From: Voacanga thouarsii
Taxonomy: Eukaryota > Streptophyta > Magnoliopsida > Gentianales > Apocynaceae
NCBI GenBank assembly: GCA_026120185.1
Contig: JANUWF010003366.1
Coordinates: 248,001 to 312,000 of the forward strand
DNA: 64,000 bases
Direction: 5' to 3'
The notes under the pieces: generated by a model
The model's database searches: none
Seen by the model: only the letters and a program-made list of their open reading frames with translations
What the model was told of the DNA's origin: nothing
Shown here: positions 1-31,020 of the stretch, in pieces
How the letters are laid out: every line of letters starts with the position of its first letter
Position numbering within the stretch: position 1 is the stretch's first letter
Made by a program: the position numbers and the translations under genes

Positions 1-723
1 GGATGCAAAGTGTGAAATCTTTATAAGAGAAACATCGGCAAGCAATAAACATTAGTCAAAAGCAAGAGTGGCGTTTTGGCTCTTCTAGCCATACATAAGT
101 AATGAAATCAACCACTCGAAAGAAAGGGATATGGGTTACCACACGTTGGGCCCCATAACCGGTCAGAATGCCTAACACTTTGTGCAGACCGACAAAAGTA
201 GGTGATCGGCCTACTGGGCAAGATACTCCTCCTTTTCTATACCCAAATAACCGCCGGGTGTGCATTCCGGCAAAAACACAGTAACTTGACTGTAACAAAA
301 TAAACTGCTAGCTCGGACCGGCACGACTCACTGGAACTGGCATCTTATCCAGGAAGGACTCACCCCTCAGAGGTGGCCATCTACTGAGTGACTTACCCTA
401 ACCCTTCAAAGACTAGTCCTAGTAGTCCACCTTTATTGAGTACTCAACGACATTCCTCACTTGGGATAAAATGAACAAAGCATTGTTCTTCATGAAAATA
501 ACAATTTGAGGGTTTCCAAAGCTTTGGGAGAAATTAGTTTTAGAAAGAGTTTCAAGTTTGGAAAAATCTGCTCAAAGACTTTTAAATAATTTAAGCGTTG
601 GAATTAATGATGAATTCAATCCTCAATTGCTTTCAAATAACCGAGTGTCCTTGCACTCCACATTTGGCTTGCCATAAGGAAATCATTTCACATCAATTAG
701 GTTTTATGCAGGACCTTACCTGA
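1..723 (-). repeat. LTR-A, distal part left of the array (runs off window)
   Basis: This stretch matches the reverse complement of about 48,004-48,720, the 3' third of the solo LTR-A at 44,797-49,085. Shared blocks include the GCTAGCTCGGACCGGC-type segment near 305-325 and the TTGAGTACTCAACG-type segment near 437-450. It is continuous with the LTR-A piece of array unit 1 and joins it at TTCTTG (724-729), exactly as in the solo LTR (47,998-48,003 in reverse). It is therefore the unduplicated remainder of the LTR-A that founded the array. The 80-codon open frame on the minus strand here lies inside LTR sequence and shows no recognisable domain. Confidence 0.85.
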
Positions 724-3408
724 TTCTTGCTCACAACAACAAGGTCCTGAACAGCTGACCTAACCCCACATGGGCAAATACAAATCTTAATCAGATTCAA
801 ACCACAATCCACTTCCTCAATTTTAAATCAACTCAATTCACTACTACCATGATCCTAGTGTCCCAAGCTTTAAGGCAAAACAATAATTGAATAGGTTTAT
901 AAGCTAAGTTTAATTTGTCATTTAAAATAATTAATGGATTAGGAAATAAATTCTAATAAGTTGAAATTTTAAATCTTGTTAAGGGAAATTTAGATTTTAT
1001 TTGATCAGGAGCCATAGGTGGTATTAGGTAAAATAGTGATTTAATAATAGCTTAGTTGTTAGAAAATAATTGATAGCTAAAACTAGTTAAGATTAAATTT
1101 AGTAAGTCTTTCTTGGAAAATAATAAGTAAATCCTTAAGGGTTTTGATTTAGTAAATATTTTATTAAGTACAAATCTTTTCTATAAAGGCTTTAATTAAT
1201 TTCTTTATTTTAAATAATATTTATTTATTTTATTTTCTAGAAAAGTTATTATTTATTTGACTAAAATATCCTTTACATATATTATAATTCCAAATCTACC
1301 CTTCCTAGGATTTTCGAAATTCTCTAGCAAAAATTATTAGTAAATATTTTATTCATGAAATAAAATTTGCTTAGGGACAACTAGATCATGATCAAGATTC
1401 TATGGTCAACCATAATCAATAACATACTCAATCCTTCAATTCATCAAATCATCCAAATCTTGCACATATGCATAGATCTAAATTTATTAAGACATGCTTT
1501 AACCTCTACTAGCATAAACATGATCATGGCTTCAAAATCTAATCACGCATACAAATCCTATTCACCAATGGTGATATAATCTCTAGCATGCTTCATCACA
1601 AATACAACCTATGACATGCATCAAACCTCAACTCATTATTCAATAGACCAATATAATCATTCCATGCATAAATCCCGTCTCCTTCACAATCATCCATATA
1701 CTCATGCTTCAATCTCGACAACAACACATATACAAACCCATAGCCATTCATCTTCTCACAACATCAACCTAGAGACATGATTCTAAAGTTTAAAGAGAGT
1801 ATTGAAGCTACTTACTTGGTTGATGAATGACTTGAAGGAGTTTAGAGAATATCTCAACTCCAAGATGGCTTGAAGATGTTCTTGTTCAGAAATTTCTGCT
1901 TTAATCCGAAGTAGAAAGATGTTTGGAGGAGTTTTATGTTAATAATGGTGTTGATGGATTCACAGCAATGAGTAGACTAAATCTGGAGATTTTCGTGAGG
2001 GTTTGAGGTGGTTTGGAGGGGTATTAGGTGTAGAGAAGAAGTGGGTGTTCTTGGTGTAGTGTGTGTGTGTGTTCTTGATGCTTGAAGAAAAATCGAGAGA
2101 GGGAGAAATGGTTTGTGCAGCTGCCGATTTTTCTGTGGGAATAGGCCTAGCCGAATTCTAGCAGGGTTTAGGGAGTTTATTCTCTAATTTGGAAGGGAAA
2201 AGGAAAGGTTAGTTGTTACAATCCTTGAAGAATACTTTTGGGAAGTGAATTTGGAAAGTAGATATCCTAAGAATATCTTGATTTGTTTGGACAGCTTGAA
2301 GTCTCCTATGGCCGACTGGATTGTGCAGCTCTTCTGGGGAATTAAGGCTGGTTAAAGGAGGCTTGTGATGGCTGAAACCAAGGTGCACAATGGTGGAGAA
2401 TATGTCTGATCAATTGAGCAAAATTTTATGGAAAGTTGTTAAACAAGATGGCTGAAATTTTGGAAAGCATTCAAGCTAAATTGCAGGATTTGGTTGAGGG
2501 ATTTTTGGACAGCCATTAATGGAATTTCGTGCGGAAGTTCAAGGGGATCAATGGAACTCTGTCGATGGAGGTTTAAGGAAGGTTTTGACAGATTAAGGTT
2601 GGTGTTTTGGCTGGAAGAGAGATAGGAAACAAGCTGGATGAAAATCTGCACAGAATTTTCGCTGCACAGTGATTTTTCTGGCAGATTTTTGTTTGCTATT
2701 TAGAGCCATTTTACAGCGAGTTTTAAAGGGGATTTTAGGGGTATTCAAGGCTGGTTTCCAACCTTCTTTATGGAGGAAAAACATGGCTAAGGTGCTGCAC
2801 AAAATCTGGGAGAAAACAGCTTGGTTTGGAGTTCTCAAAGCTGATTTTCGTACAGGAATTTTTCCTGTTTTGCTCCAGCTTGTGCAGTCCGAAATTGGTC
2901 AAGAATTTTCAGGTTTCACACTGATCCTAAAGACCATTTTTCTGGCAGAATTTGGGAGGGAATGTGAGCTAGTTTTTTTGATCTTTTGAAGGTACAACAA
3001 GCTGGAAAATTTCAGCTCATTCCATGAAGATAGATGAACTAAGATAGAGGAAAATTTCAGCAAGCTTTCAAGAGGGATTTTCCTTTTGAATTTTCCCACA
3101 AATCTACCATATTTTCCAAACCAAAAGAAGTCTTTTGCCAAGACATTTTGATCCTAAAAGACCTCAGCACTCTACTGGATTTTCTGGAAAGAAAAAGGCT
3201 AGAACATCTTGATCAAACTAATGAGTTGAGAATTGAGGAAAATTAAAGATCAAGGAAGGATGATTTTCCCTATAAGAATTTCGAGAAGAGTAAAAGGTGT
3301 GGAATGAGATTACTTTTATCATGTCTCTCCTAGAACATCATCACCACATTAATCTAGGCCCTTAAGGCCGAAACCATCCTTTTCCAAGCAAAATAAAATT
3401 TACTCAAA

Positions 3409-3477
3409 CTATGATGGACTTTGAACCTTAGACCTCAATAATTTATTCCAAAGCTCTAACAACTAAACCACAACAAC
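3409..3477 (-). other. tRNA-derived sequence with A and B box (unit 1; repeated in all nine units)
   Basis: Read on the minus strand it starts GTTGTTG, then the A-box-like TGGTTTAGTTG, then 44 nt after the A-box start the B-box-like GGTTCAAAGTCC. That spacing is the one found in tRNA genes. The acceptor and T stems no longer pair well, so it is not a working tRNA gene. Copies lie at the same place in every unit (coordinates under each unit), and a better preserved one is at 45,043-45,113. The 5' part resembles plant tRNA-Asp or tRNA-Val. Pol III activity is only a possibility. Confidence 0.6.
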
Positions 3478-4032
3478 TCTTATTGATACTTTCGCTAGAA
3501 AAATTATTTTCTATTCAATCCACAAGCTATCTCCCTATTTTCACCTCGGGCAAAAATTACCATTTTCCCCTACTCACATAACATTCACCCACCCAACTTC
3601 AAAACAAGAAACTCACATCCAAAGCATATAAAAATCATATGGAAGCATATTTAAACATGAAATGAAGCATGTTATGCATCCCTAACCCCCTTACTCTAAG
3701 GTTGGTCTTGACTGGGGTTTCACACCCAACCAATTAATCTCGTAATACGCACAAGTAATCAAATATCAAGAATAACAATCAATTAATCAAAAGGTTAAAT
3801 AACTCTAAGAATCATGGATATCTACAACAATGTCAAATTACAAAACAATTAACATATCACTGTTCAAGAAAAAGAAAACAAAGTAAAAGAAAGCACTCAT
3901 AAACAAGCCTCCTTCTTCTTCCTTTGAAGACCTTCTTGTACAACCCTCCTTGAATTGAAGAATTCCTCATTTGATTGAGTAATTTTCAATGATGATCAAT
4001 GAATTCTCCCTTTTTTCCCTTGTGTTTTTCAT

Positions 4033-4042
4033 CTATTTATAG
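4033..4042 (+). promoter_or_regulatory. TATA-like box of LTR-B, repeated in each array unit
   Basis: CTATTTATAG precedes GCTTAGGAAGTGCC, 33 bp before the unit end. The same site is in the free LTR-B copies (52,106-52,115 plus; 53,273-53,282 minus, as CTATAAATAG) and in unit 9 at 30,978-30,987. Conservation at one fixed place, in a T/C-rich to AT context, suggests the LTR-B core promoter. Transcripts would begin near the unit junction and run rightward into the next unit, antisense to its LTR-A. Confidence 0.5.
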
Positions 4043-4075
4043 GCTTAGGAAGTGCCTAAACTTGTAGGTACAGAG

Positions 4076-7000
4076 TTCTTGCTCACAACAACAAGGTCTC
4101 GAACAGCTGACCTAACCCCACATGGGCAAATACAAATCTTAATTAGATTCAAGCCACAATCCACTTCCTCAATTTTAAATCAACTCAATTCACTACTACC
4201 AGGATCCTAGTGTCCCAAGCTATAAGGAAAAACAATAATTGAATAGGTTTATAAGCTAAGTTTAATTTGTTATTTAAAATAATTAATGGATTAGGAAATA
4301 AATTCTAATAAGTTGAAAGTTTAAATCTTGTTAAGGAAAATTTAGAATATATTCGATCAGAAGCCATAGGTGGTATTAGGTAAAATAGTGATTTAATGAT
4401 AGCTTAGTTGTTAGAAAATAATTGATAGCTAAAACTAGTTAAGATTAAATTTAGTAAGTCTTTCTTGGAAAATAATAAGTAAATCCTTAAGGGTTTTGAT
4501 TTAGTAAATATTTTATTAAGTACAAATCTTTTCTATAAAGGCTTTAATTAATTTCTTTATTTTAAATAATATTTATTTATTTTATTTTCTAGAAAAATTA
4601 TTATTTATTTGAATAAAATATCCTTTATATATATTATAATTCCAAATCTACCCTTCTTAGGATTTTCGAAATTCTCTAGCAAAAATTATTAGTAAATATT
4701 TTATTCATGAAATAAAATTTACTTAGGGACAACTAGATCATGATCAAGATTCCATGGTCACATGATTCCATGGTCAACCATAATTAAAAACATACTCAAT
4801 CCTTCAATTCATCAAATCATCCAAATCTTCCACATAGGCATAGATCTAAATTTATTAAGACATGTTTTAACCTCTACTAGCATAAACATGATCATGGCTT
4901 CAAAATCTAATCATGCATACAAATCCTATTCACCAATGGTGATATAATCTCTAGCATGCTTCATCACAAATACTACCTATGACATGCATCAAACTTCAAC
5001 TCATCATTCAATCGACCAATATAATTCTTCCATGCATAAATCCCATCTCCTTCACAATCATCCATATACTCATGCTTCAATCTCGACAACAACACATATA
5101 CAAACCCATAGCCATTCATCTTCTCACAACATCAACCTAGAGACATGATTCTAAAGTTTAAAGAGAGTATTGAAGCTACTTACTTGGTTGATGAATGACT
5201 TGAAGGAGTTTAGAGAATATCTCAACTCCAAGATGGCTTGAAGATGTTCTTGTTCAGAAATTTCTGCTTTAATCCGAAGTAGCAAGATGTTTGGAGGAGT
5301 TTGATGTTAATAATGGTGTTGATGGATTCACAGCAATGAGTAGACTAAATCTGGAGTTTTTCGTGAGGGTTTGAGGTGGTTTGGAGAGGTATTAGGTGTA
5401 GAGAAGAAGTGGGTGTTCTTGGTGTAGTGTGTGTGTGTGTTCTTGATGCTTGAAGAAAAATCGAGAGAGGGAGAAATGGTTTGTGCAGCTGCCGATTTTT
5501 CTGTGGGAATAGGCCTAGCCGAATTCTAGCAGGGTTTTGGGAGTTTATTCTCTAATTTGGAAGGGAAAAGGAAAGGTTAGTTGTTACAATCCTTGAAGAA
5601 TACTTTTGGGAAGTGAATTTGGAAAGTAGATATCCTAAGAATATCTTGATTTGTTTGGACAGCTTGAAGTCTCCTATGGCCGACTGGATTGTGCAGCTCT
5701 TCTGGGGAATTAAGGCTGGTTAAAGGAGGCTTGTGATGGCTGAAACCAAGGTGCACAATGGTGGAGAATATGTCTGATCAATTGAGCAAAATTTTATGGA
5801 AAGTTGTTAAACAAGATGGCTGAAATTTTGGAAAGCATTCAAGCTAAATTGCAGGATTTGGTTGAGGGATTTTTGGACAGCCATTAATGGAATTTCGTGC
5901 GGAAGTTCAAGGGGATCAATGGAACTCTGTCGATGGAGGTTTAAGGAAGGTTTTGACAGATTAAGGTTGGTGTTTTGGCTGGAAGAGAGATAGGAAACAA
6001 GCTGGATGAAAATCTGCACAGAATTTTCGCTGCACAGTGATTTTTCTGGCAGATTTTTGTTTGCTATTTAGAGCCATTTTACAGCGAGTTTTAAAGGGGA
6101 TTTTAGGGGTATTCAAGGCTGGTTTCCAACCTTCTTTATGGAGGAAAAACATGGCTAAGGTGCTGCACAAAATCTGGGAGAAAACAGCTTGGTTTGGAGT
6201 TCTCAAAGCTGATTTTCGTACAGGAATTTTTCCTGTTTTGCTCCAGCTTGTGCAGTCCGAAATTGGTCAAGAATTTTCAGGTTTCACACTGATCCTAAAG
6301 ACCATTTTTCTGGCAGAATTTGGGAGGGAATGTGAGCTAGTTTTTTTGATCTTTTGAAGGTACAACAAGCTGGAAAATTTCAGCTCATTCCATGAAGATA
6401 GATGAACTAAGATAGAGGAAAATTTCAGCAAGCTTTCAAGAGGGATTTTCCTTTTGAATTTTCCCACAAATCTACCATATTTTCCAAACCAAAAGAAGTC
6501 TTTTGCCAAGACATTTTGATCCTAAAAGACCTCAGCACTCTACTGGATTTTCTGGAAAGAAAAAGGCTAGAACATCTTGATCAAACTAATGAGTTGAGAA
6601 TTGAGGAAAATTAAAGATCAAGGAAGGATGATTTTCCCTATAAGAATTTCGAGAAGAGTAAAAGGTGTGGAATGAGATTACTTTTATCATGTCTCTCCTA
6701 GAACATCATCACCACATTAATCTAGGCCCTTAAGGCCGAAACCATCCTTTTCCAAGCAAAATAAAATTTACTCAAACTATGATGGACTTTGAACCTTAGA
6801 CCTCAATAATTTATTCCAAAGCTCTAACAACTAAACCACAACAACTCTTATTGATACTTTCGCTAGAAAAATTATTTTCTATTCAATCCACAAGCTATCT
6901 CCCTATTTTCACCTCGGGCAAAAATTACCATTTTCCCCTACTCACAGAACATTCACCCACCCAACTTCAAAACAAGAAACTCACATCCAAAGCATATAAA

Positions 7001-7444
7001 AATCATATGGAAGCATATTTAAACATGAAATGAAGCATGTTATGCATCCCTAACCCCCTTACTCTAAGGTTGGTCTTGACTCGGGGTTTCACACCCAACC
7101 AATTAATCTCGTAATACGCACAAGTAATCAAATATCAAGAATAACAATCAATTAATCAAAAGGTTAAATAACTCTAAGAATCATGGATATCTACAACAAT
7201 GTCAAATTACAAAACAATTAACATATCACTGTTCAAGAAAAAGAAAACAAAGTAAAAGAAAGCACTCATAAACAAGCCTCCTTCTTCTTCCTTTGAAGAC
7301 CTTCTTGTACAACCCTCCTTGAATTGAAGAATTCCTCATTTGATTGAGTAATTTTCAATGATGATCAATGAATTCTCCCTTTTTTCCCTTGTGTTTTTCA
7401 TCTATTTATAGGCTTAGGAAGTGCCTAAACTTGTAGGTACAGAG
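4076..7444. repeat. Array unit 2
   Basis: Variant marks: CCAGGATCC near the start, ATTAAAAACAT with CTTCCACAT in the first kilobase (shared with unit 5), and GACTCGGGG at the LTR-A end (shared with units 4 and 7). tRNA-like segment 6777-6845 (minus). Confidence 0.9.
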
Positions 7445-10400
7445 TTCTTGCTCACAACAACAAGGTCTCGAACAACTGACCTAACCCCACATGGGCAAAT
7501 ACAAATCTTAATTAGATTCAAGCCACAATCCACTTCCTCAATTTTAAATCAACTCAATTCACTACTACCACGATCCTAGTGTCCCAAGCTATAAGGAAAA
7601 ACAATAATTGAATAGGTTTATAAGCTAAGTTTAATTTGTTATTTAAAATAATTAATGGATTAGGAAATAAATTCTAATAAGTTGAAAGTTTAAATCTTGT
7701 TAAGGAAAATTTAGAATTTATTCGATCGAAGCCATAGGTGGTATTAGGTAAAATAGTGATTTAATGATAGCTTAGTTGTTAGAAAATAATTGATAGCTAA
7801 AACTAGTTAAGATTAAATTTAGTAAGTCTTTCTTGGAAAATAATAAGTAAATCCTTAAGGGTTTTGATTTAGTAAATATTTTATTAAGTACAAATCTTTT
7901 CTATAAAGGCTTTAATTAATTTCTTTATTTTAAATAATATTTATTTATTTTATTTTCTAGAAAAGTTATTATTTATTTGAATAAAATATCATTTATATAT
8001 ATTATAATTCCAAATCTACCCTTCTTAGGATTTTCGAAATTCTCTAGCAAAAATTATTAGTAAATATTTTATTCATGAAATAAAATTTACTTAGGGACAA
8101 CTAGATCATGATCAAGATTCCATGGTCACATGATTCCATGGTCAACCATAATTAATAACATACTCAATCCTTCAATTCATCAAATCATCCAAATCTTGCA
8201 CATAGGCATAGATCTAAATTTATTAAGACATGTTTTAACCTCTACTAGCATAAACATGATCATGGCTTCAAAATCTAATCATGCATACAAATCCTATTCA
8301 CCAATGGTGATATAATCTCTAGCATGCTTCATCACAAATACTACCTATGACATGCATCAAACTTCAACTCATCATTCAATCGACCAATATAATTCTTCCA
8401 TGCATAAATCCCATCTCCTTCACAATCATCCATATACTCATGCTTCAATCTCGACAACAACACATATACAAACCCATAGCCATTCATCTTCTCACAACAT
8501 CAACCTAGAGACATGATTCTAAAGTTTAAAGAGAGTATTGAAGCTACTTACTTGGTTGATGAATGACTTGAAGGAGTTTAGAGAATATCTCAACTCCAAG
8601 ATGGCTTGAAGATGTTCTTGTTCAGAAATTTCTGCTTTAATCCGAAGTAGCAAGATGTTTGGAGGAGTTTGATGTTAATAATGGTGTTGATGGATTCACA
8701 GCAATGAGTAGACTAAATCTGGAGTTTTTCGTGAGGGTTTGAGGTGGTTTGGAGAGGTATTAGGTGTAGAGAAGAAGTGGGTGTTCTTGGTGTAGTGTGT
8801 GTGTGTGTTCTTGATGCTTGAAGAAAAATCGAGAGAGGGAGAAATGGTTTGTGCAGCTGCCGATTTTTCTGTGGGAATAGGCCTAGCCGAATTCTAGCAG
8901 GGTTTTGGGAGTTTATTCTCTAATTTGGAAGGGAAAAGGAAAGGTTAGTTGTTACAATCCTTGAAGAATACTTTTGGGAAGTGAATTTGGAAAGTAGATA
9001 TCCTAAGAATATCTTGATTTGTTTGGACAGCTTGAAGTCTCCTATGGCCGACTGGATTGTGCAGCTCTTCTGGGGAATTAAGGCTGGTTAAAGGAGGCTT
9101 GTGATGGCTGAAACCAAGGTGCACAATGGTGGAGAATATGTCTGATCAATTGAGCAAAATTTTATGGAAAGTTGTTAAACAAGATGGCTGAAATTTTGGA
9201 AAGCATTCAAGCTAAATTGCAGGATTTGGTTGAGGGATTTTTGGACAGCCATTAATGGAATTTCGTGCGGAAGTTCAAGGGGATCAATGGAACTCTGTCG
9301 ATGGAGGTTTAAGGAAGGTTTTGACAGATTAAGGTTGGTGTTTTGGCTGGAAGAGAGATAGGAAACAAGCTGGATGAAAATCTGCACAGAATTTTCGCTG
9401 CACAGTGATTTTTCTGGCAGATTTTTGTTTGCTATTTAGAGCCATTTTACAGCGAGTTTTAAAGGGGATTTTAGGGGTATTCAAGGCTGGTTTCCAACCT
9501 TCTTTATGGAGGAAAAACATGGCTAAGGTGCTGCACAAAATCTGGGAGAAAACAGCTTGGTTTGGAGTTCTCAAAGCTGATTTTCGTACAGGAATTTTTC
9601 CTGTTTTGCTCCAGCTTGTGCAGTCCGAAATTGGTCAAGAATTTTCAGGTTTCACACTGATCCTAAAGACCATTTTTCTGGCAGAATTTGGGAGGGAATG
9701 TGAGCTAGTTTTTTTGATCTTTTGAAGGTACAACAAGCTGGAAAATTTCAGCTCATTCCATGAAGATAGATGAACTAAGATAGAGGAAAATTTCAGCAAG
9801 CTTTCAAGAGGGATTTTCCTTTTGAATTTTCCCACAAATCTACCATATTTTCCAAACCAAAAGAAGTCTTTTGCCAAGACATTTTGATCCTAAAAGACCT
9901 CAGCACTCTACTGGATTTTCTGGAAAGAAAAAGGCTAGAACATCTTGATCAAACTAATGAGTTGAGAATTGAGGAAAATTAAAGATCAAGGAAGGATGAT
10001 TTTCCCTATAAGAATTTCGAGAAGAGTAAAAGGTGTGGAATGAGATTACTTTTATCATGTCTCTCCTAGAACATCATCACCACATTAATCTAGGCCCTTA
10101 AGGCCGAAACCATCCTTTTCCAAGCAAAATAAAATTTACTCAAACTATGATGGACTTTGAACCTTAGACCTCAATAATTTATTCCAAAGCTCTAACAACT
10201 AAACCACAACAACTCTTATTGATACTTTCGCTAGAAAAATTATTTTCTATTCAATCCACAAGCTATCTCCCTATTTTCACCTCGGGCAAAAATTACCATT
10301 TTCCCCTACTCACATAACATTCACCCACCCAACTTCAAAACAAGAAACTCACATCCAAAGCATATAAAAATCATATGGAAGCATATTTAAACATGAAATG

Positions 10401-10811
10401 AAGCATGTTATGCATCCCTAACCCCCTTACTCTAAGGTTGGTCTTGACTGGGGTTTCACACCCAACCAATTAATCTCGTAATACGCACAAGTAATCAAAT
10501 ATCAAGAATAACAATCAATTAATCAAAAGGTTAAATAACTCTAAGAATCATGGATATCTACAACAATGTCAAATTACAAAACAATTAACATATCACTGTT
10601 CAAGAAAAAGAAAACAAAGTAAAAGAAAGCACTCATAAACAAGCCTCCTTCTTCTTCCTTTGAAGACCTTCTTGTACAACCCTCCTTGAATTGAAGAATT
10701 CCTCATTTGATTGAGTAATTTTCAATGATGATCAATGAATTCTCCCTTTTTTCCCTTGTGTTTTTCATCTATTTATAGGCTTAGGAAGTGCCTAAACTTG
10801 TAGGTACAGAG
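7445..10811. repeat. Array unit 3
   Basis: Variant marks: GATCGAAGCC with a 1-bp deletion (shared with unit 9), AATATCATTTATA (shared with units 4 and 8), and CTCACATAACATTC near the end (shared with unit 1). tRNA-like segment 10145-10213 (minus). Confidence 0.9.
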
Positions 10812-13800
10812 TTCTTGCTCACAACAACAAGGTCTCGAACAACTGACCTAACCCCACATGGGCAAATACAAATCTTAATTAGATTCAAGCCACAATCCAC
10901 TTCCTCAATTTTAAATCAACTCAATTCACTACTACCACGATCCTAGTGTCCCAAGCTATAAGGAAAAACAATAATTGAATAGGTTTATAAGCTAAGTTTA
11001 ATTTGTTATTTAAAATAATTAATGGATTAGGAAATAAATTCTAATAAGTTGAAAGTTTAAATCTTGTTAAGGAAAATTTAGAATTTATTCGATCGTAAGC
11101 CATAGGTGGTATTAGGTAAAATAGTGATTTAATGATAGCTTAGTTGTTAGAAAATAATTGATAGCTAAAACTAGTTAAGATTAAATTTAGTAAGTCTTTC
11201 TTGGAAAATAATAAGTAAATCCTTAAGGGTTTTGATTTAGTAAATATTTTATTAAGTACAAATCTTTTCTATAAAGGCTTTAATTAATTTCTTTATTTTA
11301 AATAATATTTATTTATTTTATTTTCTAGAAAAGTTATTATTTATTTGAATAAAATATCATTTATATATATTATAATTCCAAATCTACCCTTCTTAGGATT
11401 TTCGAAATTCTCTAGCAAAAATTATTAGTAAATATTTTATTCATGAAATAAAATTTACTTAGGGACAACTAGATCATGATCAAGATTCCATGGTCACATG
11501 ATTCCATGGTCAACCATAATTAATAACATACTCAATCCTTCAATTCATCAAATCATCCAAATCTTGCACATAGGCATAGATCTAAATTTATTAAGACATG
11601 TTTTAACCTCTACTAGCATAAACATGATCATGGCTTCAAAATCTAATCATGCATACAAATCCTATTCACCAATGGTGATATAATCTCTAGCATGCTTCAT
11701 CACAAATACTACCTATGACATGCATCAAACTTCAACTCATCATTCAATCGACCAATATAATTCTTCCATGCATAAATCCCATCTCCTTCACAATCATCCA
11801 AATACTCATGCTTCAATTTCGACAACAACACATACACAAACCCATCGCCATTCATCTTCTCACAACATCAACCTAGAGACATGATTCTAAAGTTTAAAGA
11901 GAGGATTGAAGCTACTTACTTGGTTGATGAATGACTTGAAGGAGTTTAGAGAATATCTCAACTCCAAGATGGCTTGAAGATGTTCTTGTTCAGAAATTTC
12001 TGCTTTAATCCGAAGTAGCAAGATGTTTGGAGGAGTTTGATGTTAATAATGGTGTTGATGGATTCACAGCAATGAGTAGACTAAATCTGGAGTTTTTCGT
12101 GAGGGTTTGAGGTGGTTTGGAGAGGTATTAGGTGTAGAGAAGAAGTGGGTGTTCTTGGTGTAGTGTGTGTGTGTGTTCTTGATGCTTGAAGAAAAATCGA
12201 GAGAGGGAGAAATGGTTTGTGCAGCTGCCGATTTTTCTGTGGGAATAGGCCTAGCCGAATTCTAGCAGGGTTTAGGGAGTTTATTCTCTAATTTGGAAGG
12301 GAAAAGGAAAGGTTAGTTGTTACAATCCTTGAAGAATACTTTTGGGAAGTGAATTTGGAAAGTAGATATCCTAAGAATATCTTGATTTGTTTGGACAGCT
12401 TGAAGTCTCCTATGGCCGACTGGATTGTGCAGCTCTTCTGGGGAATTAAGGCTGGTTAAAGGAGGCTTGTGATGGCTGAAACCAAGGTGCACAATGGTGG
12501 AGAATATGTCTGATCAATTGAGCAAAATTTTATGGAAAGTTGTTAAACAAGATGGCTGAAATTTTGGAAAGCATTCAAGCTAAATTGCAGGATTTGGTTG
12601 AGGGATTTTTGGACAGCCATTAATGGAATTTCGTGCGGAAGTTCAAGGGGATCAATGGAACTCTGTCGATGGAGGTTTAAGGAAGGTTTTGACAGATTAA
12701 GGTTGGTGTTTTGGCTGGAAGAGAGATAGGAAACAAGCTGGATGAAAATCTGCACAGAATTTTCGCTGCACAGTGATTTTTCTCGGCAGATTTTTGTTTG
12801 CTATTTAGAGCCATTTTACAGCGAGTTTTAAAGGGGATTTTAGGGGTATTCAAGGCTGGTTTCCAACCTTCTTTATGGAGGAAAAACATGGCTAAGGTGC
12901 TGCACAAAATCTGGGAGAAAACAGCTTGGTTTGGAGTTCTCAAAGCTGATTTTCGTACAGGAATTTTTCCTGTTTTGCTCCAGCTTGTGCAGTCCGAAAT
13001 TGGTCAAGAATTTTCAGGTTTCACACTGATCCTAAAGACCATTTTTCTGGCAGAATTTGGGAGGGAATGTGAGCTAGTTTTTTTGATCTTTTGAAGGTAC
13101 AACAAGCTGGAAAATTTCAGCTCATTCCATGAAGATAGATGAACTAAGATAGAGGAAAATTTCAGCAAGCTTTCAAGAGGGATTTTCCTTTTGAATTTTC
13201 CCACAAATCTACCATATTTTCCAAACCAAAAGAAGTCTTTTGCCAAGACATTTTGATCCTAAAAGACCTCAGCACTCTACTGGATTTTCTGGAAAGAAAA
13301 AGGCTAGAACATCTTGATCAAACTAATGAGTTGAGAATTGAGGAAAATTAAAGATCAAGGAAGGATGATTTTCCCTATAAGAATTTCGAGAAGAGTAAAA
13401 GGTGTGGAATGAGATTACTTTTATCATGTCTCTCCTAGAACATCATCACCACATTAATCTAGGCCCTTAAGGCCGAAACCATCCTTTTCCAAGCAAAATA
13501 AAATTTACTCAAACTATGATGGACTTTGAACCTTAGACCTCAATAATTTATTCCAAAGCTCTAACAACTAAACCACAACAACTCTTATTGATACTTTCGC
13601 TAGAAAAATTATTTTCTATTCAATCCACAAGCTATCTCCCTATTTTCACCTCGGGCAAAAATTACCATTTTCCCCTACTCACAGAACATTCACCCACCCA
13701 ACTTCAAAACAAGAAACTCACATCCAAAGCATATAAAAATCATATGGAAGCATATTTAAACATGAAATGAAGCATGTTATGCATCCCTAACCCCCTTACT

Positions 13801-14181
13801 CTAAGGTTGGTCTTGACTCGGGGTTTCACACCCAACCAATTAATCTCGTAATACGCACAAGTAATCAAATATCAAGAATAACAATCAATTAATCAAAAGG
13901 TTAAATAACTCTAAGAATCATGGATATCTACAACAATGTCAAATTACAAAACAATTAACATATCACTGTTCAAGAAAAAGAAAACAAAGTAAAAGAAAGC
14001 ACTCATAAACAAGCCTCCTTCTTCTTCCTTTGAAGACCTTCTTGTACAACCCTCCTTGAATTGAAGAATTCCTCATTTGATTGAGTAATTTTCAATGATG
14101 ATCAATGAATTCTCCCTTTTTTCCCTTGTGTTTTTCATCTATTTATAGGCTTAGGAAGTGCCTAAACTTGTAGGTACAGAG
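10812..14181. repeat. Array unit 4
   Basis: Variant marks: GATCGTAAGCC, AATATCATTTATA, CAATTTCGACAAC with CCATCGCC (nearly as in unit 8), GGGTTTAGGG, and TCTCGGCAG (1-bp insertion shared only with units 5 and 6). GACTCGGGG at the LTR-A end is as in units 2 and 7. tRNA-like segment 13514-13582 (minus). Confidence 0.9.
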
Positions 14182-17100: not shown

Positions 17101-17549
17101 TATAAAAATCATATGGAAGCATATTTAAACATGAAATGAAGCATGTTATGCATCCCTAACCCCCTTACTCTAAGGTTGGTCTTGACTGGGGTTTCACACC
17201 CAACCAATTAATCTCGTAATACGCACAAGTAATCAAATATCAAGAATAACAATCAATTAATCAAAAGGTTAAATAACTCTAAGAATCATGGATATCTACA
17301 ACAATGTCAAATTACAAAACAATTAACATATCACTGTTCAAGAAAAAGAAAACAAAGTAAAAGAAAGCACTCATAAACAAGCCTCCTTCTTCTTCCTTTG
17401 AAGACCTTCTTGTACAACCCTCCTTGAATTGAAGAATTCCTCATTTGATTGAGTAATTTTCAATGATGATCAATGAATTCTCCCTTTTTTCCCTTGTGTT
17501 TTTCATCTATTTATAGGCTTAGGAAGTGCCTAAACTTGTAGGTACAGAG
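14182..17549. repeat. Array unit 5
   Basis: The first half resembles unit 2 (CCAGGATCC, ATTAAAAACAT, CTTCCACAT), while the end resembles unit 8 (CACAATCTATC). It carries the TCTCGGCAG insertion and the shortened GTGGGTGTTTTGG. This makes it a visible mosaic. tRNA-like segment 16883-16951 (minus). Confidence 0.9.
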
Positions 17550-20500: not shown

Positions 20501-20917
20501 GAAATGAAGCATGTTATGCATCCCTAACCCCCTTACTCTAAGGTTGGTCTTGACTGGGGTTTCACACCCAACCAATTAATCTCGTAATACGCACAAGTAA
20601 TCAAATATCAAGAATAACAATCAATTAATCAAAAGGTTAAATAACTCTAAGAATCATGGATATCTACAACAATGTCAAATTACAAAACAATTAACATATC
20701 ACTGTTCAAGAAAAAGAAAACAAAGTAAAAGAAAGCACTCATAAACAAGCCTCCTTCTTCTTCCTTTGAAGACCTTCTTGTACAACCCTCCTTGAATTGA
20801 AGAATTCCTCATTTGATTGAGTAATTCTCAATGATGATCAATGAATTCTCCCTTTTTTCCCTTGTGTTTTTCATCTATTTATAGGCTTAGGAAGTGCCTA
20901 AACTTGTAGGTACAGAG
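17550..20917. repeat. Array unit 6
   Basis: Variant marks: GATCAGAAGCC, GTGGGTGTTTTGG and TCTCGGCAG. The distinctive CCTTCTCACACAAC with CCCACACAACT near 20,410-20,440 is shared only with unit 9. tRNA-like segment 20251-20319 (minus). Confidence 0.9.
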
Positions 20918-23900
20918 TTCTTGCTCACAACAACAAGGTCTCGAACAGCTGACCTAACCCCACATGGGCAAATACAAATCTTAATTAGATTCAAGCCACA
21001 ATCCACTTCCTCAATTTTAAATCAACTCAATTCACTACTACCACGATCCTAGTGTCCCAAGCTATAAGGAAAAACAATAATTGAATAGGTTTATAAGCTA
21101 AGTTTAATTTGTTATTTAAAATAATTAATGGATTAGGAAATAAATTCTAATAAGTTGAAAGTTTAAATCTTGTTAAGGAAAATTTAGAATTTATTCGATC
21201 AGAAGCCATAGGTGGTATTAGGTAAAATAGTGATTTAATGATAGCTTAGTTGTTAGAAAATAATTGATAGCTAAAACTAGTTAAGATTAAATTTAGTAAG
21301 TCTTTCTTGGAAAATAATAAGTAAATCCTTAAGGGTTTTGATTTAGTAAATATTTTATTAAGTACAAATCTTTTCTATAAAGGCTTTAATTAATTTCTTT
21401 ATTTTAAATAATATTTATTTATTTTATTTTCTAGAAAAGTTATTATTTATTTGAATAAAATATCCTTTATATATATTATAATTCCAAATCTACCCTTCTT
21501 AGGATTTTCGAAATTCTCTAGCAAAAATTATTAGTAAATATTTTATTCATGAAATAAAATTTACTTAGGGACAACTAGATCATGATCAAGATTCCATGGT
21601 CACATGATTCCATGGTCAACCATAATTAATAACATACTCAATCCTTCAATTCATCAAATCATCCAAATCTTGCACATAGGCATAGATCTAAATTTATTAA
21701 GACATGTTTTAACCTCTACTAGCATAAACATGATCATGGCTTCAAAATCTAATCATGCATACAAATCCTATTCACCAATGGTGATATAATCTCTAGCATG
21801 CTTCATCACAAATACTACCTATGACATGCATCAAACTTCAACTCATCATTCAATCGACCAATATAATTCTTCCATGCATAAATCCCATCTCCTTCACAAT
21901 CATCCATATACTCATGCTTCAATCTCGACAACAACACATATACAAACCCATAGCCATTCATCTTCTCACAACATCAACCTAGAGACATGATTCTAAAGTT
22001 TAAAGAGAGTATTGAAGCTACTTACTTGGTTGATGAATGACTTGAAGGAGTTTAGAGAATATCTCAACTCCAAGATGGCTTGAAGATGTTCTTGTTCAGA
22101 AATTTCTGCTTTAATCCGAAGTAGCAAGATGTTTGGAGGAGTTTGATGTTAATAATGGTGTTGATGGATTCACAGCAATGAGTAGACTAAATCTGGAGTT
22201 TTTCGTGAGGGTTTGAGGTGGTTTGGAGAGGTATTAGGTGTAGAGAAGAAGTGGGTGTTCTTGGTGTAGTGTGTGTGTGTGTTCTTGATGCTTGAAGAAA
22301 AATCGAGAGAGGGAGAAATGGTTTGTGCAGCTGCCGATTTTTCTGTGGGAATAGGCCTAGCCGAATTCTAGCAGGGTTTTGGGAGTTTATTCTCTAATTT
22401 GGAAGGGAAAAGGAAAGGTTAGTTGTTACAATCCTTGAAGAATACTTTTGGGAAGTGAATTTGGAAAGTAGATATCCTAAGAATATCTTGATTTGTTTGG
22501 ACAGCTTGAAGTCTCCTATGGCCGACTGGATTGTGCAGCTCTTCTGGGGAATTAAGGCTGGTTAAAGGAGGCTTGTGATGGCTGAAACCAAGGTGCACAA
22601 TGGTGGAGAATATGTCTGATCAATTGAGCAAAATTTTATGGAAAGTTGTTAAACAAGATGGCTGAAATTTTGGAAAGCATTCAAGCTAAATTGCAGGATT
22701 TGGTTGAGGGATTTTTGGACAGCCATTAATGGAATTTCGTGCGGAAGTTCAAGGGGATCAATGGAACTCTGTCGATGGAGGTTTAAGGAAGGTTTTGACA
22801 GATTAAGGTTGGTGTTTTGGCTGGAAGAGAGATAGGAAACAAGCTGGATGAAAATCTGCACAGAATTTTCGCTGCACAGTGATTTTTCTGGCAGATTTTT
22901 GTTTGCTATTTAGAGCCATTTTACAGCGAGTTTTAAAGGGGATTTTAGGGGTATTCAAGGCTGGTTTCCAACCTTCTTTATGGAGGAAAAACATGGCTAA
23001 GGTGCTGCACAAAATCTGGGAGAAAACAGCTTGGTTTGGAGTTCTCAAAGCTGATTTTCGTACAGGAATTTTTCCTGTTTTGCTCCAGCTTGTGCAGTCC
23101 GAAATTGGTCAAGAATTTTCAGGTTTCACACTGATCCTAAAGACCATTTTTCTGGCAGAATTTGGGAGGGAATGTGAGCTAGTTTTTTTGATCTTTTGAA
23201 GGTACAACAAGCTGGAAAATTTCAGCTCATTCCATGAAGATAGATGAACTAAGATAGAGGAAAATTTCAGCAAGCTTTCAAGAGGGATTTTCCTTTTGAA
23301 TTTTCCCACAAATCTACCATATTTTCCAAACCAAAAGAAGTCTTTTGCCAAGACATTTTGATCCTAAAAGACCTCAGCACTCTACTGGATTTTCTGGAAA
23401 GAAAAAGGCTAGAACATCTTGATCAAACTAATGAGTTGAGAATTGAGGAAAATTAAAGATCAAGGAAGGATGATTTTCCCTATAAGAATTTCGAGAAGAG
23501 TAAAAGGTGTGGAATGAGATTACTTTTATCATGTCTCTCCTAGAACATCATCACCACATTAATCTAGGCCCTTAAGGCCGAAACCATCCTTTTCCAAGCA
23601 AAATAAAATTTACTCAAACTATGATGGACTTTGAACCTTAGACCTCAATAATTTATTCCAAAGCTCTAACAACTAAACCACAACAACTCTTATTGATACT
23701 TTCGCTAGAAAAATTATTTTCTATTCAATCCACAAGCTATCTCCCTATTTTCACCTCGGGCAAAAATTACCATTTTCCCCTACTCACAGAACATTCACCC
23801 ACCCAACTTCAAAACAAGAAACTCACATCCAAAGCATATAAAAATCATATGGAAGCATATTTAAACATGAAATGAAGCATGTTATGCATCCCTAACCCCC

Positions 23901-24286
23901 TTACTCTAAGGTTGGTCTTGACTCGGGGTTTCACACCCAACCAATTAATCTCGTAATACGCACAAGTAATCAAATATCAAGAATAACAATCAATTAATCA
24001 AAAGGTTAAATAACTCTAAGAATCATGGATATCTACAACAATGTCAAATTACAAAACAATTAACATATCACTGTTCAAGAAAAAGAAAACAAAGTAAAAG
24101 AAAGCACTCATAAACAAGCCTCCTTCTTCTTCCTTTGAAGACCTTCTTGTACAACCCTCCTTGAATTGAAGAATTCCTCATTTGATTGAGTAATTTTCAA
24201 TGATGATCAATGAATTCTCCCTTTTTTCCCTTGTGTTTTTCATCTATTTATAGGCTTAGGAAGTGCCTAAACTTGTAGGTACAGAG
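20918..24286. repeat. Array unit 7
   Basis: Variant marks: GATCAGAAGCC, GTGGGTGTTCTTGG, and GACTCGGGG with CACAGAACATTC near the end, matching unit 4. tRNA-like segment 23619-23687 (minus). Confidence 0.9.
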
Positions 24287-27200
24287 TTCTTGCTCACAAC
24301 AACAAGGTCTCGAACAACTGACCTAACCCCACATGGGCAAATACAAATCTTAATTAGATTCAAGCCACAATCCACTTCCTCAATTTTAAATCAACTCAAT
24401 TCACTACTACCACGATCCTAGTGTCCCAAGCTATAAGGAAAAACAATAATTGAATAGGTTTATAAGCTAAGTTTAATTTGTTATTTAAAATAATTAATGG
24501 ATTAGGAAATAAATTCTAATAAGTTGAAAGTTTAAATCTTGTTAAGGAAAATTTAGAATTTATTCGATCGTAAGCCATAGGTGGTATTAGGTAAAATAGT
24601 GATTTAATGATAGCTTAGTTGTTAGAAAATAATTGATAGCTAAAACTAGTTAAGATTAAATTTAGTAAGTCTTTCTTGGAAAATAATAAGTAAATCCTTA
24701 AGGGTTTTGATTTAGTAAATATTTTATTAAGTACAAATCTTTTCTATAAAGGCTTTAATTAATTTCTTTATTTTAAATAATATTTATTTATTTTATTTTC
24801 TAGAAAAGTTATTATTTATTTGAATAAAATATCATTTATATATATTATAATTCCAAATCTACCCTTCTTAGGATTTTCGAAATTCTCTAGCAAAAATTAT
24901 TAGTAAATATTTTATTCATGAAATAAAATTTACTTAGGGACAACTAGATCATGATCAAGATTCCATGGTCACATGATTCCATGGTCAACCATAATTAATA
25001 ACATACTCAATCCTTCAATTCATCAAATCATCCAAATCTTGCACATAGGCATAGATCTAAATTTATTAAGACATGTTTTAACCTCTACTAGCATAAACAT
25101 GATCATGGCTTCAAAATCTAATCATGCATACAAATCCTATTCACCAATGGTGATATAATCTCTAGCATGCTTCATCACAAATACTACCTATGACATGCAT
25201 CAAACTTCAACTCATCATTCAATCGACCAATATAATTCTTCCATGCATAAATCCCATCTCCTTCACAATCATCCATATACTCATGCTTCAATTTCGAGAA
25301 CAACACATACACAAACCCATCGCCATTCATCTTCTCACAACATCAACCTAGAGACATGATTCTAAAGTTTAAAGAGAGGATTGAAGGTACTTGCTTGGTT
25401 GATAAATGACTTGAAGGAGTTTACAGAAGATCTCAACTCCTAGATGGCTTGAAGATGTTCTTGTTCAGAAATTTCTGCTTTAATCCGAAGTAGAAAGATG
25501 TTTGGAGGAGTTTTATGTTAATAATGGTGTTGATGGATTCACAGCAATGAGTAGACTAAATCTGGAGATTTTCGTGAGGGTTTGAGGTGGTTTGGAGGGG
25601 TATTAGGTGTAGAGAAGAAGTGGGTGTTCTTGGTGTAGTGTGTGTGTGTGTTCTTGATGCTTGAAGAAAAATCGAGAGAGGGAGAAATGGTTTGTGCAGC
25701 TGCCGATTTTTCTGTGGGAATAGGCCTAGCCGAATTCTAGCAGGGTTTAGGGAGTTTATTCTCTAATTTGGAAGGGAAAAGGAAAGGTTAGTTGTTACAA
25801 TCCTTGAAGAATACTTTTGGGAAGTGAATTTGGAAAGTAGATATCCTAAGAATATCTTGATTTGTTTGGACAGCTTGAAGTCTCCTATGGCCGACTGGAT
25901 TGTGCAGCTCTTCTGGGGAATTAAGGCTGGTTAAAGGAGGCTTGTGATGGCTGAAACCAAGGTGCACAATGGTGGAGAATATGTCTGATCAATTGAGCAA
26001 AATTTTATGGAAAGTTGTTAAACAAGATGGCTGAAATTTTGGAAAGCATTCAAGCTAAATTGCAGGATTTGGTTGAGGGATTTTTGGACAGCCATTAATG
26101 GAATTTCGTGCGGAAGTTCAAGGGGATCAATGGAACTCTGTCGATGGAGGTTTAAGGAAGGTTTTGACAGATTAAGGTTGGTGTTTTGGCTGGAAGAGAG
26201 ATAGGAAACAAGCTGGATGAAAATCTGCACAGAATTTTCGCTGCACAGTGATTTTTCTGGCAGATTTTTGTTTGCTATTTAGAGCCATTTTACAGCGAGT
26301 TTTAAAGGGGATTTTAGGGGTATTCAAGGCTGGTTTCCAACCTTCTTTATGGAGGAAAAACATGGCTAAGGTGCTGCACAAAATCTGGGAGAAAACAGCT
26401 TGGTTTGGAGTTCTCAAAGCTGATTTTCGTACAGGAATTTTTCCTGTTTTGCTCCAGCTTGTGCAGTCCGAAATTGGTCAAGAATTTTCAGGTTTCACAC
26501 TGATCCTAAAGACCATTTTTCTGGCAGAATTTGGGAGGGAATGTGAGCTAGTTTTTTTGATCTTTTGAAGGTACAACAAGCTGGAAAATTTCAGCTCATT
26601 CCATGAAGATAGATGAACTAAGATAGAGGAAAATTTCAGCAAGCTTTCAAGAGGGATTTTCCTTTTGAATTTTCCCACAAATCTACCATATTTTCCAAAC
26701 CAAAAGAAGTCTTTTGCCAAGACATTTTGATCCTAAAAGACCTCAGCACTCTACTGGATTTTCTGGAAAGAAAAAGGCTAGAACATCTTGATCAAACTAA
26801 TGAGTTGAGAATTGAGGAAAATTAAAGATCAAGGAAGGATGATTTTCCCTATAAGAATTTCGAGAAGAGTAAAAGGTGTGGAATGAGATTACTTTTATCA
26901 TGTCTCTCCTAGAACATCATCACCACATTAATCTAGGCCCTTAAGGCCGAAACCATCCTTTTCCAAGCAAAATAAAATTTACTCAAACTATGATGGACTT
27001 TGAACCTTAGACCTCAATAATTTATTCCAAAGCTCTAACAACTAAACCACAACAACTCTTATTGATACTTTCGCTAGAAAAATTATTTTCTATTCAATCC
27101 ACAATCTATCTCCCTATTTTCACCTCGGGCAAAAATTACCATTTTCCCCTACTCACAGAACATTCACCCACCCAACTTCAAAACAAGAAACTCACATCCA

Positions 27201-27654
27201 AAGCATATAAAAATCATATGGAAGCATATTTAAACATGAAATGAAGCATGTTATGCATCCCTAACCCCCTTACTCTAAGGTTGGTCTTGACTGGGGTTTC
27301 ACACCCAACCAATTAATCTCGTAATACGCACAAGTAATCAAATATCAAGAATAACAATCAATTAATCAAAAGGTTAAATAACTCTAAGAATCATGGATAT
27401 CTACAACAATGTCAAATTACAAAACAATTAACATATCACTGTTCAAGAAAAAGAAAACAAAGTAAAAGAAAGCACTCATAAACAAGCCTCCTTCTTCTTC
27501 CTTTGAAGACCTTCTTGTACAACCCTCCTTGAATTGAAGAATTCCTCATTTGATTGAGTAATTTTCAATGATGATCAATGAATTCTCCCTTTTTTCCCTT
27601 GTGTTTTTCATCTATTTATAGGCTTAGGAAGTGCCTAAACTTGTAGGTACAGAG
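24287..27654. repeat. Array unit 8 (mosaic with unit-1-like tract)
   Basis: It begins like unit 4 (GATCGTAAGCC, AATATCATTTATA, CCATCGCC). From about 25,490 to 25,750 it carries variants otherwise seen only or mainly in unit 1: GTAGAAAGATG, GAGTTTTATG, GGAGATTTTCG, GGAGGGGTATT and GGGTTTAGGG. Its end matches unit 5 (CACAATCTATC). It also has private changes around 25,385-25,440 (GAAGGTACTTGC, GATAAATGAC). tRNA-like segment 26988-27056 (minus). Confidence 0.9.
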
Positions 27655-30600
27655 TTCTTGCTCACAACAACAAGGTCTCGAACAGCTGACCTAACCCCAC
27701 ATGGGCAAATACAAATCTTAATTAGATTCAAGCCACAATCCACTTCCTCAATTTTAAATCAACTCAATTCACTACTACCACGATCCTAGTGTCCCAAGCT
27801 ATAAGGAAAAACAATAATTGAATAGGTTTATAAGCTAAGTTTAATTTGTTATTTAAAATAATTAATGGATTAGGAAATAAATTCTAATAAGTTGAAAGTT
27901 TAAATCTTGTTAAGGAAAATTTAGAATTTATTCGATCGAAGCCATAGGTGGTATTAGGTAAAATAGTGATTTAATGATAGCTTAGTTGTTAGAAAATAAT
28001 TGATAGCTAAAACTAGTTAAGATTAAATTTAGTAAGTCTTTCTTGGAAAATAATAAGTAAATCCTTAAGGGTTTTGATTTAGTAAATATTTTATTAAGTA
28101 CAAATCTTTTCTATAAAGGCTTTAATTAATTTCTTTATTTTAAATAATATTTATTTATTTTATTTTCTAGAAAAGTTATTATTTATTTGAATAAAATATC
28201 CTTTATATATATTATAATTCCAAATCTACCCTTCTTAGGATTTTCGAAATTCTCTAGCAAAAATTATTAGTAAATATTTTATTCATGAAATAAAATTTAC
28301 TTAGGGACAACTAGATCATGATCAAGATTCCATGGTCACATGATTCCATGGTCAACCATAATTAATAACATACTCAATCCTTCAATTCATCAAATCATCC
28401 AAATCTTGCACATAGGCATAGATCTAAATTTATTAAGACATGTTTTAACCTCTACTAGCATAAACATGATCATGGCTTCAAAATCTAATCATGCATACAA
28501 ATCCTATTCACCAATGGTGATATAATCTCTAGCATGCTTCATCACAAATACTACCTATGACATGCATCAAACTTCAACTCATCATTCAATCGACCAATAT
28601 AATTCTTCCATGCATAAATCCCATCTCCTTCACAATCATCCATATACTCATGCTTCAATCTCGACAACAACACATATACAAACCCATAGCCATTCATCTT
28701 CTCACAACATCAACCTAGAGACATGATTCTAAAGTTTAAAGAGAGTATTGAAGCTACTTACTTGGTTGATGAATGACTTGAAGGAGTTTAGAGAATATCT
28801 CAACTCCAAGATGGCTTGAAGATGTTCTTGTTCAGAAATTTCTGCTTTAATCCGAAGTAGCAAGATGTTTGGAGGAGTTTGATGTTAATAATGGTGTTGA
28901 TGGATTCACAGCAATGAGTAGACTAAATCTGGAGTTTTTCGTGAGGGTTTGAGGTGGTTTGGAGAGGTATTAGGTGTAGAGAAGAAGTGGGTGTTTTGGT
29001 GTAGTGTGTGTGTGTGTTCTTGATGCTTGAAGAAAAATCGAGAGAGGGAGAAATGGTTTGTGCAGCTGCCGATTTTTCTGTGGGAATAGGCCTAGCCGAA
29101 TTCTAGCAGGGTTTTGGGAGTTTATTCTCTAATTTGGAAGGGAAAAGGAAAGGTTAGTTGTTACAATCCTTGAAGAATACTTTTGGGAAGTGAATTTGGA
29201 AAGTAGATATCCTAAGAATATCTTGATTTGTTTGGACAGCTTGAAGTCTCCTATGGCCGACTGGATTGTGCAGCTCTTCTGGGGAATTAAGGCTGGTTAA
29301 AGGAGGCTTGTGATGGCTGAAACCAAGGTGCACAATGGTGGAGAATATGTCTGATCAATTGAGCAAAATTTTATGGAAAGTTGTTAAACAAGATGGCTGA
29401 AATTTTGGAAAGCATTCAAGCTAAATTGCAGGATTTGGTTGAGGGATTTTTGGACAGCCATTAATGGAATTTCGTGCGGAAGTTCAAGGGGATCAATGGA
29501 ACTCTGTCGATGGAGGTTTAAGGAAGGTTTTGACAGATTAAGGTTGGTGTTTTGGCTGGAAGAGAGATAGGAAACAAGCTGGATGAAAATCTGCACAGAA
29601 TTTTCGCTGCACAGTGATTTTTCTGGCAGATTTTTGTTTGCTATTTAGAGCCATTTTACAGCGAGTTTTAAAGGGGATTTTAGGGGTATTCAAGGCTGGT
29701 TTCCAACCTTCTTTATGGAGGAAAAACATGGCTAAGGTGCTGCACAAAATCTGGGAGAAAACAGCTTGGTTTGGAGTTCTCAAAGCTGATTTTCGTACAG
29801 GAATTTTTCCTGTTTTGCTCCAGCTTGTGCAGTCCGAAATTGGTCAAGAATTTTCAGGTTTCACACTGATCCTAAAGACCATTTTTCTGGCAGAATTTGG
29901 GAGGGAATGTGAGCTAGTTTTTTTGATCTTTTGAAGGTACAACAAGCTGGAAAATTTCAGCTCATTCCATGAAGATAGATGAACTAAGATAGAGGAAAAT
30001 TTCAGCAAGCTTTCAAGAGGGATTTTCCTTTTGAATTTTCCCACAAATCTACCATATTTTCCAAACCAAAAGAAGTCTTTTGCCAAGACATTTTGATCCT
30101 AAAAGACCTCAGCACTCTACTGGATTTTCTGGAAAGAAAAAGGCTAGAACATCTTGATCAAACTAATGAGTTGAGAATTGAGGAAAATTAAAGATCAAGG
30201 AAGGATGATTTTCCCTATAAGAATTTCGAGAAGAGTAAAAGGTGTGGAATGAGATTACTTTTATCATGTCTCTCCTAGAACATCATCACCACATTAATCT
30301 AGGCCCTTAAGGCCGAAACCATCCTTTTCCAAGCAAAATAAAATTTACTCAAACTATGATGGACTTTGAACCTTAGACCTCAATAATTTATTCCAAAGCT
30401 CTAACAACTAAACCACAACAACTCTTATTGATACTTTCGCTAGAAAAATTATTTTCTATTCAATCCACAAGCTATCTCCCTATTTTCACCTCGGGCAAAA
30501 ATTACCATTTTCCCCTTCTCACACAACATTCACCCACACAACTTCAAAACAAGAAACTCACATCCAAAGCATATAAAAATCATATGGAAGCATATTTAAA

Positions 30601-31020
30601 CATGAAATGAAGCATGTTATGCATCCCTAACCCCCTTACTCTAAGGTTGGTCTTGACTGGGGTTTCACACCCAACCAATGAATCTCGTAATATGCACAAG
30701 TAATCAAATATCAAGAATAACAATTAATTAATCAAAAGGTTAAATAACTCTAAGAATCATGAATATCTACAACAATGTCAAATTACAAAACAATTAACAT
30801 ATCACTGTTCAAGAAAAAGAAAACAAAGTAAAAGAAAGCACTCATAAACAAGCCTCCTTCTTCTTCCTTTGAAGACCTTCTTGTACAACCCTCCTTGAAT
30901 TGAAGAATTCCTCATTTGATTGAGTAATTTTCAATGATGATCAATGAATTCTCCCTTTTTTCCCTTGTGTTTTTCATCTATTTATAGGCTTAGGAAGTGC
31001 CTAAACTTGTAGGTACAGAG
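27655..31020. repeat. Array unit 9 (last unit)
   Basis: It shares GATCGAAGCC with unit 3, and GTGGGTGTTTTGG plus the CCTTCTCACACAAC block with unit 6. Its LTR-B part has private changes (CCAATGAATCTCG, ATATGCAC, CATGAATATC at 30,675-30,765), as expected for an array end. It runs without a break into the rest of LTR-B at 31,021. tRNA-like segment 30354-30422 (minus). Confidence 0.9.

Follow-up and report, generated by a model that had tools for sequence, protein, structure and literature searches.

The left part of the window (the whole stretch of DNA that was analysed, 64,000 nucleotides long) holds a tandem array made from pieces of two LTRs, designated LTR-A and LTR-B. A broken Ty1/copia element follows the array, and relatives of both LTRs lie farther to the right. 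The features were placed as follows.

1..723, minus strand: unduplicated remainder of LTR-A (contiguous match of 3-1873 to 48720-46823, minus); it reaches the window edge and may extend past it
724..729, plus strand: TTCTTG at the left, unduplicated LTR-A breakpoint
724..4075: unit 1 (U1), 3352 bp, without 16 bp present in the other units; 29 private SNPs, columns 24-970
724..3722, minus strand: LTR-A portion of U1, ending at the LTR terminus GGGGTTTCA
3723..4075, plus strand: internal LTR-B piece of U1, 353 bp, beginning about 680 bp into LTR-B
4076..7444: unit 2 (U2), 3369 bp
7445..10811: unit 3 (U3), 3367 bp
10812..14181: unit 4 (U4), 3370 bp
14182..17549: unit 5 (U5), 3368 bp
17550..20917: unit 6 (U6), 3368 bp
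20918..24286: unit 7 (U7), 3369 bp
24287..27654: unit 8 (U8), 3368 bp, with a divergent tract at unit columns 1007-1463
27655..31020: unit 9 (U9), 3366 bp, with four private SNPs at unit columns 3030-3112
31021..31026, plus strand: TTCTTG at the right, unduplicated LTR-B breakpoint
31027..31431, plus strand: unduplicated remainder of LTR-B, running to the LTR-B end GCCCCTATCA
31432..35332, plus strand: broken Ty1/copia element hosting LTR-B, with leader, gag, pre-integrase and reverse transcriptase; RNase H-like pieces were recognized by eye
35333..37079, plus strand: 3' LTR of the copia element; it reads TGTTAG...CCCAACA, differs from LTR-B and matches 55333-57058 at 85.8%
44799..48723, plus strand: dispersed LTR-A relative, starting TGAAACCCC
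50241..54774: LTR-B relatives that fix the element termini; a solo LTR with target duplication CTAAA/CTAAA and two further LTR-B copies inside

Self-BLAST of the window returned nested direct repeats over 724-31026 at 98.2-99.4% identity. Units were cut at the seams (724, 4076, 7445, 10812, 14182, 17550, 20918, 24287, 27655 and 31021) and then aligned, giving nine head-to-tail units with a period of 3.37 kb over 724-31020, as the first-pass annotation had reported. The tandem-repeat program, which covers periods of at most 500 bp, did not detect the array. In every unit, minus-strand LTR-A runs for about 3.0 kb up to its terminus and is followed by 353 bp of plus-strand LTR-B interior; the chimera of minus-strand LTR-A and a plus-strand LTR-B piece of about 350 bp that had been described for each unit was found in all nine. 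These head-to-tail units with LTR sequence make up an LTR-derived tandem repeat, present as one 30-kb array in the 64-kb window. The adjoining sequences, LTR-A at 1-723 and LTR-B at 31027-31431, are not repeated inside the array. The annotation had placed the remainders of both LTRs beside the array, which held for single-copy LTR-A on the left and single-copy LTR-B on the right. Within the window, however, LTR-B lacks its first ~680 bp and LTR-A its far end, so that just one of the two A/B boundaries is visible.

The LTR-A portion has a relative at 44799-48720 on the opposite strand, 72-80% identical, and the end of LTR-A in every unit (...GGGGTTTCA) is the reverse complement of the start of that relative (TGAAACCCC at 44799). 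The TG end of the relative is clear at 44799. On its 3' side, no CA end followed by CGATA with at most one mismatch was found between 48500 and 49400; position 48723 gives CGAAC (3/5). The LTR-B portion matches 50845-51115, 51799-52154 and 53590-53234. The piece in U1 aligned over 3727-4081 with 51799-52154 at 89.4% identity, and in that relative LTR-B starts at 51116, the whole copy (51116-52651, 1536 bp) reading TGATG...GCCCCTATCA. LTR-B has the TG...CA ends of an LTR, and the relative at 50241-54774 is bounded by a perfect 5-bp target duplication (CTAAA/CTAAA); LTR-B is therefore an LTR, there in solo form. LTR-A and LTR-B gave no blastn match to each other at E<=1e-3, in agreement with the earlier statement that they are unrelated. 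LTR-A and the copia LTR shared a single 35-bp blastn match (83%, E 8e-5), and the LTR-A relative matched the copia LTR in TC runs only.

The solo LTR at 50241-54774 is itself a nest, with a plus-strand LTR-B copy (51116-52651) and a minus-strand copy (52750-54271) inside a third LTR-B, the host piece between them being inverted. The target duplications match crosswise (ATAAT/ATAAT and, with one mismatch, CTACT/TTACT), as expected if recombination between the two inverted LTR-B copies flipped the middle.

To the right of the array, LTR-B ends at 31431 and is followed directly by a Ty1/copia leader homologous to the sequence from 59829 onward. Pfam searches covered six ORF pieces of the copia stretch and gave hits in three (PF14223, PF22936, PF13976 and PF07727), the pieces lying in separate ORFs. 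When the gag protein was compared with 58 candidates, 13 proved to be relatives, with at best 54% identity; the one with a named source comes from Theobroma cacao, which points to a flowering plant. LTR-B was considered as the LTR of this adjacent element and rejected: the element has its own, different 3' LTR (35333-37079) directly after the RNase H-like region, and LTR-B ends inside the copia leader. LTR-B is an LTR in its own right that sits in the leader of the broken copia element, and the nest therefore has three layers, namely the copia element, LTR-B within it and LTR-A within LTR-B, with the left half outside the window.

The hexamer TTCTTG stands at every internal seam (8 of 8) and at the two single-copy flank breakpoints, a short direct repeat at each point where a short-repeat-initiated array would have one. 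The left breakpoint, in LTR-A, reads CTGA-TTCTTG-CTCACA and the right breakpoint, in LTR-B, AGAG-TTCTTG-GCCGAG; all eight internal seams combine the two as AGAG-TTCTTG-CTCACA (in longer form, LTR-B ...ACAGAG TTCTTG CTCACAAC... LTR-A). The LTR-A relative has this hexamer too, as do the LTR-B relative, near 52149, and the inverted LTR-B piece at 52655-52745. Since it occupies the same places in these relatives, both parents probably carried it beforehand. Homology of at least 6 bp at randomly chosen A/B breakpoint pairs had a frequency of 0.0029 (200,000 draws). The seam homology may be the mark of microhomology-mediated joining or of template switching, two processes not distinguishable here, and its presence at seams and flanks adds a mechanism for the start of the array that the first-pass annotation did not name.

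The nine units differ at 65 SNP columns, of which 29 are private to U1, seven to U8, four to U9 and four to other units; the remaining 21 are shared. Each unit differs from every other, the closest pair (U3-U7) by 4 substitutions. The private SNPs of the end units lie outward in the array: those of U1 begin at column 24 and reach at most column 970 (mean 518), and those of U9 have a mean column of 3065 (range 3030-3112). All differences between U1 and the rest of the array fall left of column 1463 except one at 2873, which is common to U3. Between stretches of difference, in columns 990-1155, U1 has the majority allele at all SNP columns. Divergence was 30 in ~955 bp at the left edge versus 4 in ~345 bp at the right edge (Fisher p 0.0495). 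Among the 171 pairs formed by 19 informative sites, 55 failed the four-gamete test; the units have therefore recombined. Similarity among U2-U9 did not decay with distance (Mantel r 0.01, p 0.44). The tract of U8 at columns 1007-1463 has seven alleles private to U8, and its others are common to U4 or U1; its right part matches U1, and U4 holds part of it. The U8 and U4 tracts would be conversion tracts of ~90-460 bp, and the donor of the U8 tract was possibly an old LTR-A haplotype. Mosaic units, the four-gamete failures and diverged edge units together make the pattern of concerted evolution.

Columns 1464-2796 (1333 bp) contain no SNP in any of the nine units and one single-base indel, at 1973, while polymorphism among U2-U9 is present in columns 31-755. 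When 65 SNPs were placed at random 20,000 times the gap never exceeded 671, versus 1334 observed. The zone includes the part of LTR-A least conserved with respect to its relative (65-76% in columns 1501-2500 versus 77-86% in 1-1250). No Pfam match was obtained for five LTR-A ORFs (four in the unit and one at 59-307 to the left), and no Rfam match was found in the window at gathering scores. Given this low conservation and the lack of Pfam and Rfam matches, constraint on the zone is not supported. Either conversion was focused there, or the array entered from a diverged template between those points.

Growth of the array was simulated with hand-chosen rates, so that the results are illustrations rather than fits. 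Acceptance required a final state of nine units and 35-110 SNPs (first six settings) or 20-110 SNPs (two strong-conversion settings), and most runs were dropped. A gap of 1334 was reached in 0/150 accepted runs each under uniform exchange, exchange with conversion and a burst, in 0/100, 0/100 and 0/22 under central exchange with rising conversion, and in 0/60 under strong uniform conversion, or 0/732 for these seven settings together. The SNP-free zone was thus not reproduced by uniform unequal exchange, whether or not short conversion tracts were added, by central exchange or by strong uniform conversion. Strong central conversion reached the gap in about 4/60 runs (0.07). In simulated arrays with at least four private SNPs, uniform unequal exchange placed the U1 mean below column 1000 in 43% and the U9 mean above column 2500 in 24%, versus 4% and 1.5% in the one-burst model, the two cut-offs having been picked after the data were seen. 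A clean single burst is disfavoured by these positions. The mean numbers of private SNPs in U1 and U9 were 10.6 and 11.8 under uniform exchange, 18.3 and 11.0 under central exchange, and 2.7 and 1.8 under strong central conversion; no setting gave, on average, both observed counts (29 and 4).

The locus is best explained, with a probability of about 0.78, as a young tandem array that expanded where it now lies, starting from one side of a nested LTR insertion, through joining at TTCTTG followed by misaligned exchange and gene conversion. First, LTR-B would have inserted into the leader of the copia element, and LTR-A would then have inserted on the minus strand ~680 bp into LTR-B, as the termini show for the visible side and as is presumed for the hidden one. 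That nested insertion of A in B came first and amplification across one A/B boundary second, as had been proposed, is supported by the exact LTR-A terminus against LTR-B interior, by a chimera that is the same in every one of the nine units, and by the single-copy sequence left on either side. Next, a break or an error of replication would have joined the TTCTTG of LTR-B to that of LTR-A, presumably by one of the two processes named above, with a tandem duplication of the 3.37-kb segment spanning the A/B boundary as the product. Two such long copies could misalign, and exchange between sister chromatids or homologues would have enlarged the array. Gene conversion would finally have reshuffled it, and mosaic units and outward-lying edge variants are what is observed. 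The outer edges of the end units would keep old differences because the unit-adding crossovers of unequal exchange do not copy them. Of a single burst and unequal exchange with conversion, the latter agrees better with the variant pattern. No function is indicated.

Five observations count against this explanation. The SNP-free zone was matched in just one simulation setting (strong central conversion), the private SNP counts of U1 and U9 were not reproduced on average by any setting, U2-U9 lack the distance-decay that plain stepwise expansion could show, the differing left- and right-edge divergence is not predicted by a single duplication date, and the left A/B boundary lies outside the window.

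On the scale used for maize, an LTR distance of 0.0122 equals 0.94 My (PMC3648361). The 30 differences between the left part of U1 and the array would then suggest ~2.4 My, on a scale that may not be the rate of the host. On the same scale and a star tree, the absence of SNPs in 9 x 1333 bp would put the last homogenization of the SNP-free zone at an upper bound near 40,000 years.

The array could also have been built off-site or by rolling replication, which we consider unlikely. A diverged A/B copy on another haplotype or at another locus would have given rise to a circle, closed at TTCTTG, that was copied several times and pasted in by homologous repair, entering near column 1463 and leaving before 3030, so that the edges of U1 and U9 represent the old locus and the interior the donor. 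This accounts in one step for the confinement of U1 differences to the left of 1463 (except 2873, common to U3) and of U9-private SNPs to the right of 3030, and for the lack of any old-versus-donor difference in the stretch between. When the 29 U1-private SNPs were polarized against the LTR-A relative, U1 was derived at 14 and the array at 10, with 5 undecided, and such similar numbers are those of two separated lineages. However, U1 equals the majority at columns 990-1155 between differing stretches, and later conversion is therefore needed; the U4/U8 mosaics and tracts require later exchange anyway, and polymorphism among U2-U9 in 31-755 versus none in 1464-2796 is left unexplained. There is likewise only a small chance that the array entered in a single event, when a gap in an A/B copy was repaired from a circular or rolling A/B template already ~3% diverged. 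If it did, U1 and U9 would still mark its points of entry and exit, as a direct record of circle-templated satellite birth, not of stepwise unequal exchange.

Inflation of one or a few real units by the assembler is very improbable. Some unit pairs are 99.9% alike, 30 kb is hard for some read types, and one-base indels account for four variable columns (285, 1343, 1973 and 3008), but every unit is distinct by at least 4 substitutions, and 21 of the 65 SNP columns are common to subsets of units, a sharing that random read errors would not give. It is equally hard to credit that no nested insertion ever took place and that a rearrangement joined unrelated LTR-A and LTR-B fragments whose joint was then amplified, for although a single A/B boundary is in view, the join lies exactly at the LTR-A TG/CA terminus, which random rearrangement would seldom reach.

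LTR-derived satellites, composite transposable-element satellites and arrays with a seam that reveals the starting break have each been described already. The CRM1TR and CRM4TR repeats of maize are, like the present array, LTR-derived tandem repeats; as given in the passages of PMC3648361, they consist of LTR and adjoining UTR (the CRM4TR unit averages 1386 nt), their start was proposed to be illegitimate recombination and their growth mainly gene conversion, with unequal exchange and rolling circles not excluded there, and nested insertions were suggested as a possible source. Each of these comes from one element family, whereas two unrelated LTRs are joined here, and short direct repeats for a one-step start were sought in that work and not found, whereas a 6-bp repeat lies in both flanks of the present array. 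The Sobo satellite of Solanum bulbocastanum is also LTR-derived but is tabulated as one LTR family, SORE-1 (PMC9659126). The rye B-chromosome satellites E3900 and D1100 are high-copy, B-specific repeats, and the passages of PMC6210368 contain no parental locus with unduplicated flanks, both of which are retained here. The centromere arrays of Solanum verrucosum resemble the present array in having kilobase units (1.7-4.1 kb), most of them described as LTR-derived, but lie inside centromeres of 0.6-1.7 Mb and are CENH3-enriched to varying degree, versus 30 kb here (passages of PMC13232507).

With regard to the seam, the yeast CUP1 arrays are similar in that it fuses their own two single-copy flanks and the starting break can be read; they differ in being gene arrays tied to copper resistance, with a seam homology of at most 3 bp that was read as end joining, versus 6 bp here (passages of PMC4232551). 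The model of Haber and Louis, as cited in PMC6947457 and PMC4232551, has repeats of 5-10 bp flanking the motif that becomes the unit, as at this locus, but was proposed for minisatellites, whereas the present unit is 3.37 kb.

No array that spans a nested LTR/LTR boundary and retains its two flanks was found in the open-access literature, covered mainly at the level of titles and abstract openings. Judged from that literature, what is new here is a unit crossing such a boundary at a locus where the two flanks and the short repeat survive, which makes this an unusually legible LTR-derived array. By our reading of reviews, satellite starts are mostly inferred from mature arrays with parents that are hard to find. 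At this locus a single 31-kb stretch still displays the nested parents on one side, both unduplicated flanks, the 6-bp homology that probably initiated the array and early sorting of variants, and models of initiation and growth can therefore be tested on haplotypes of one species. The locus also illustrates how a composite unit can arise without bringing distant sequences together: the nested insertion had already made the chimera.

Further copia repeats lie in the right part of the window. The copia LTR at 55331-57058 interrupts a second LTR of its own family, whose pieces are 54929-55325 and 57061-57614; the near target duplication reads ACTAA/ACTGA. A second copia copy at 58129-60882 has a broken gag-like reading frame and two ORF pieces without a Pfam match, and it carries the primer-site-like sequence TGGTATTAGAGC (one mismatch to the motif). 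A CATA microsatellite of 49 copies occupies 39149-39344.
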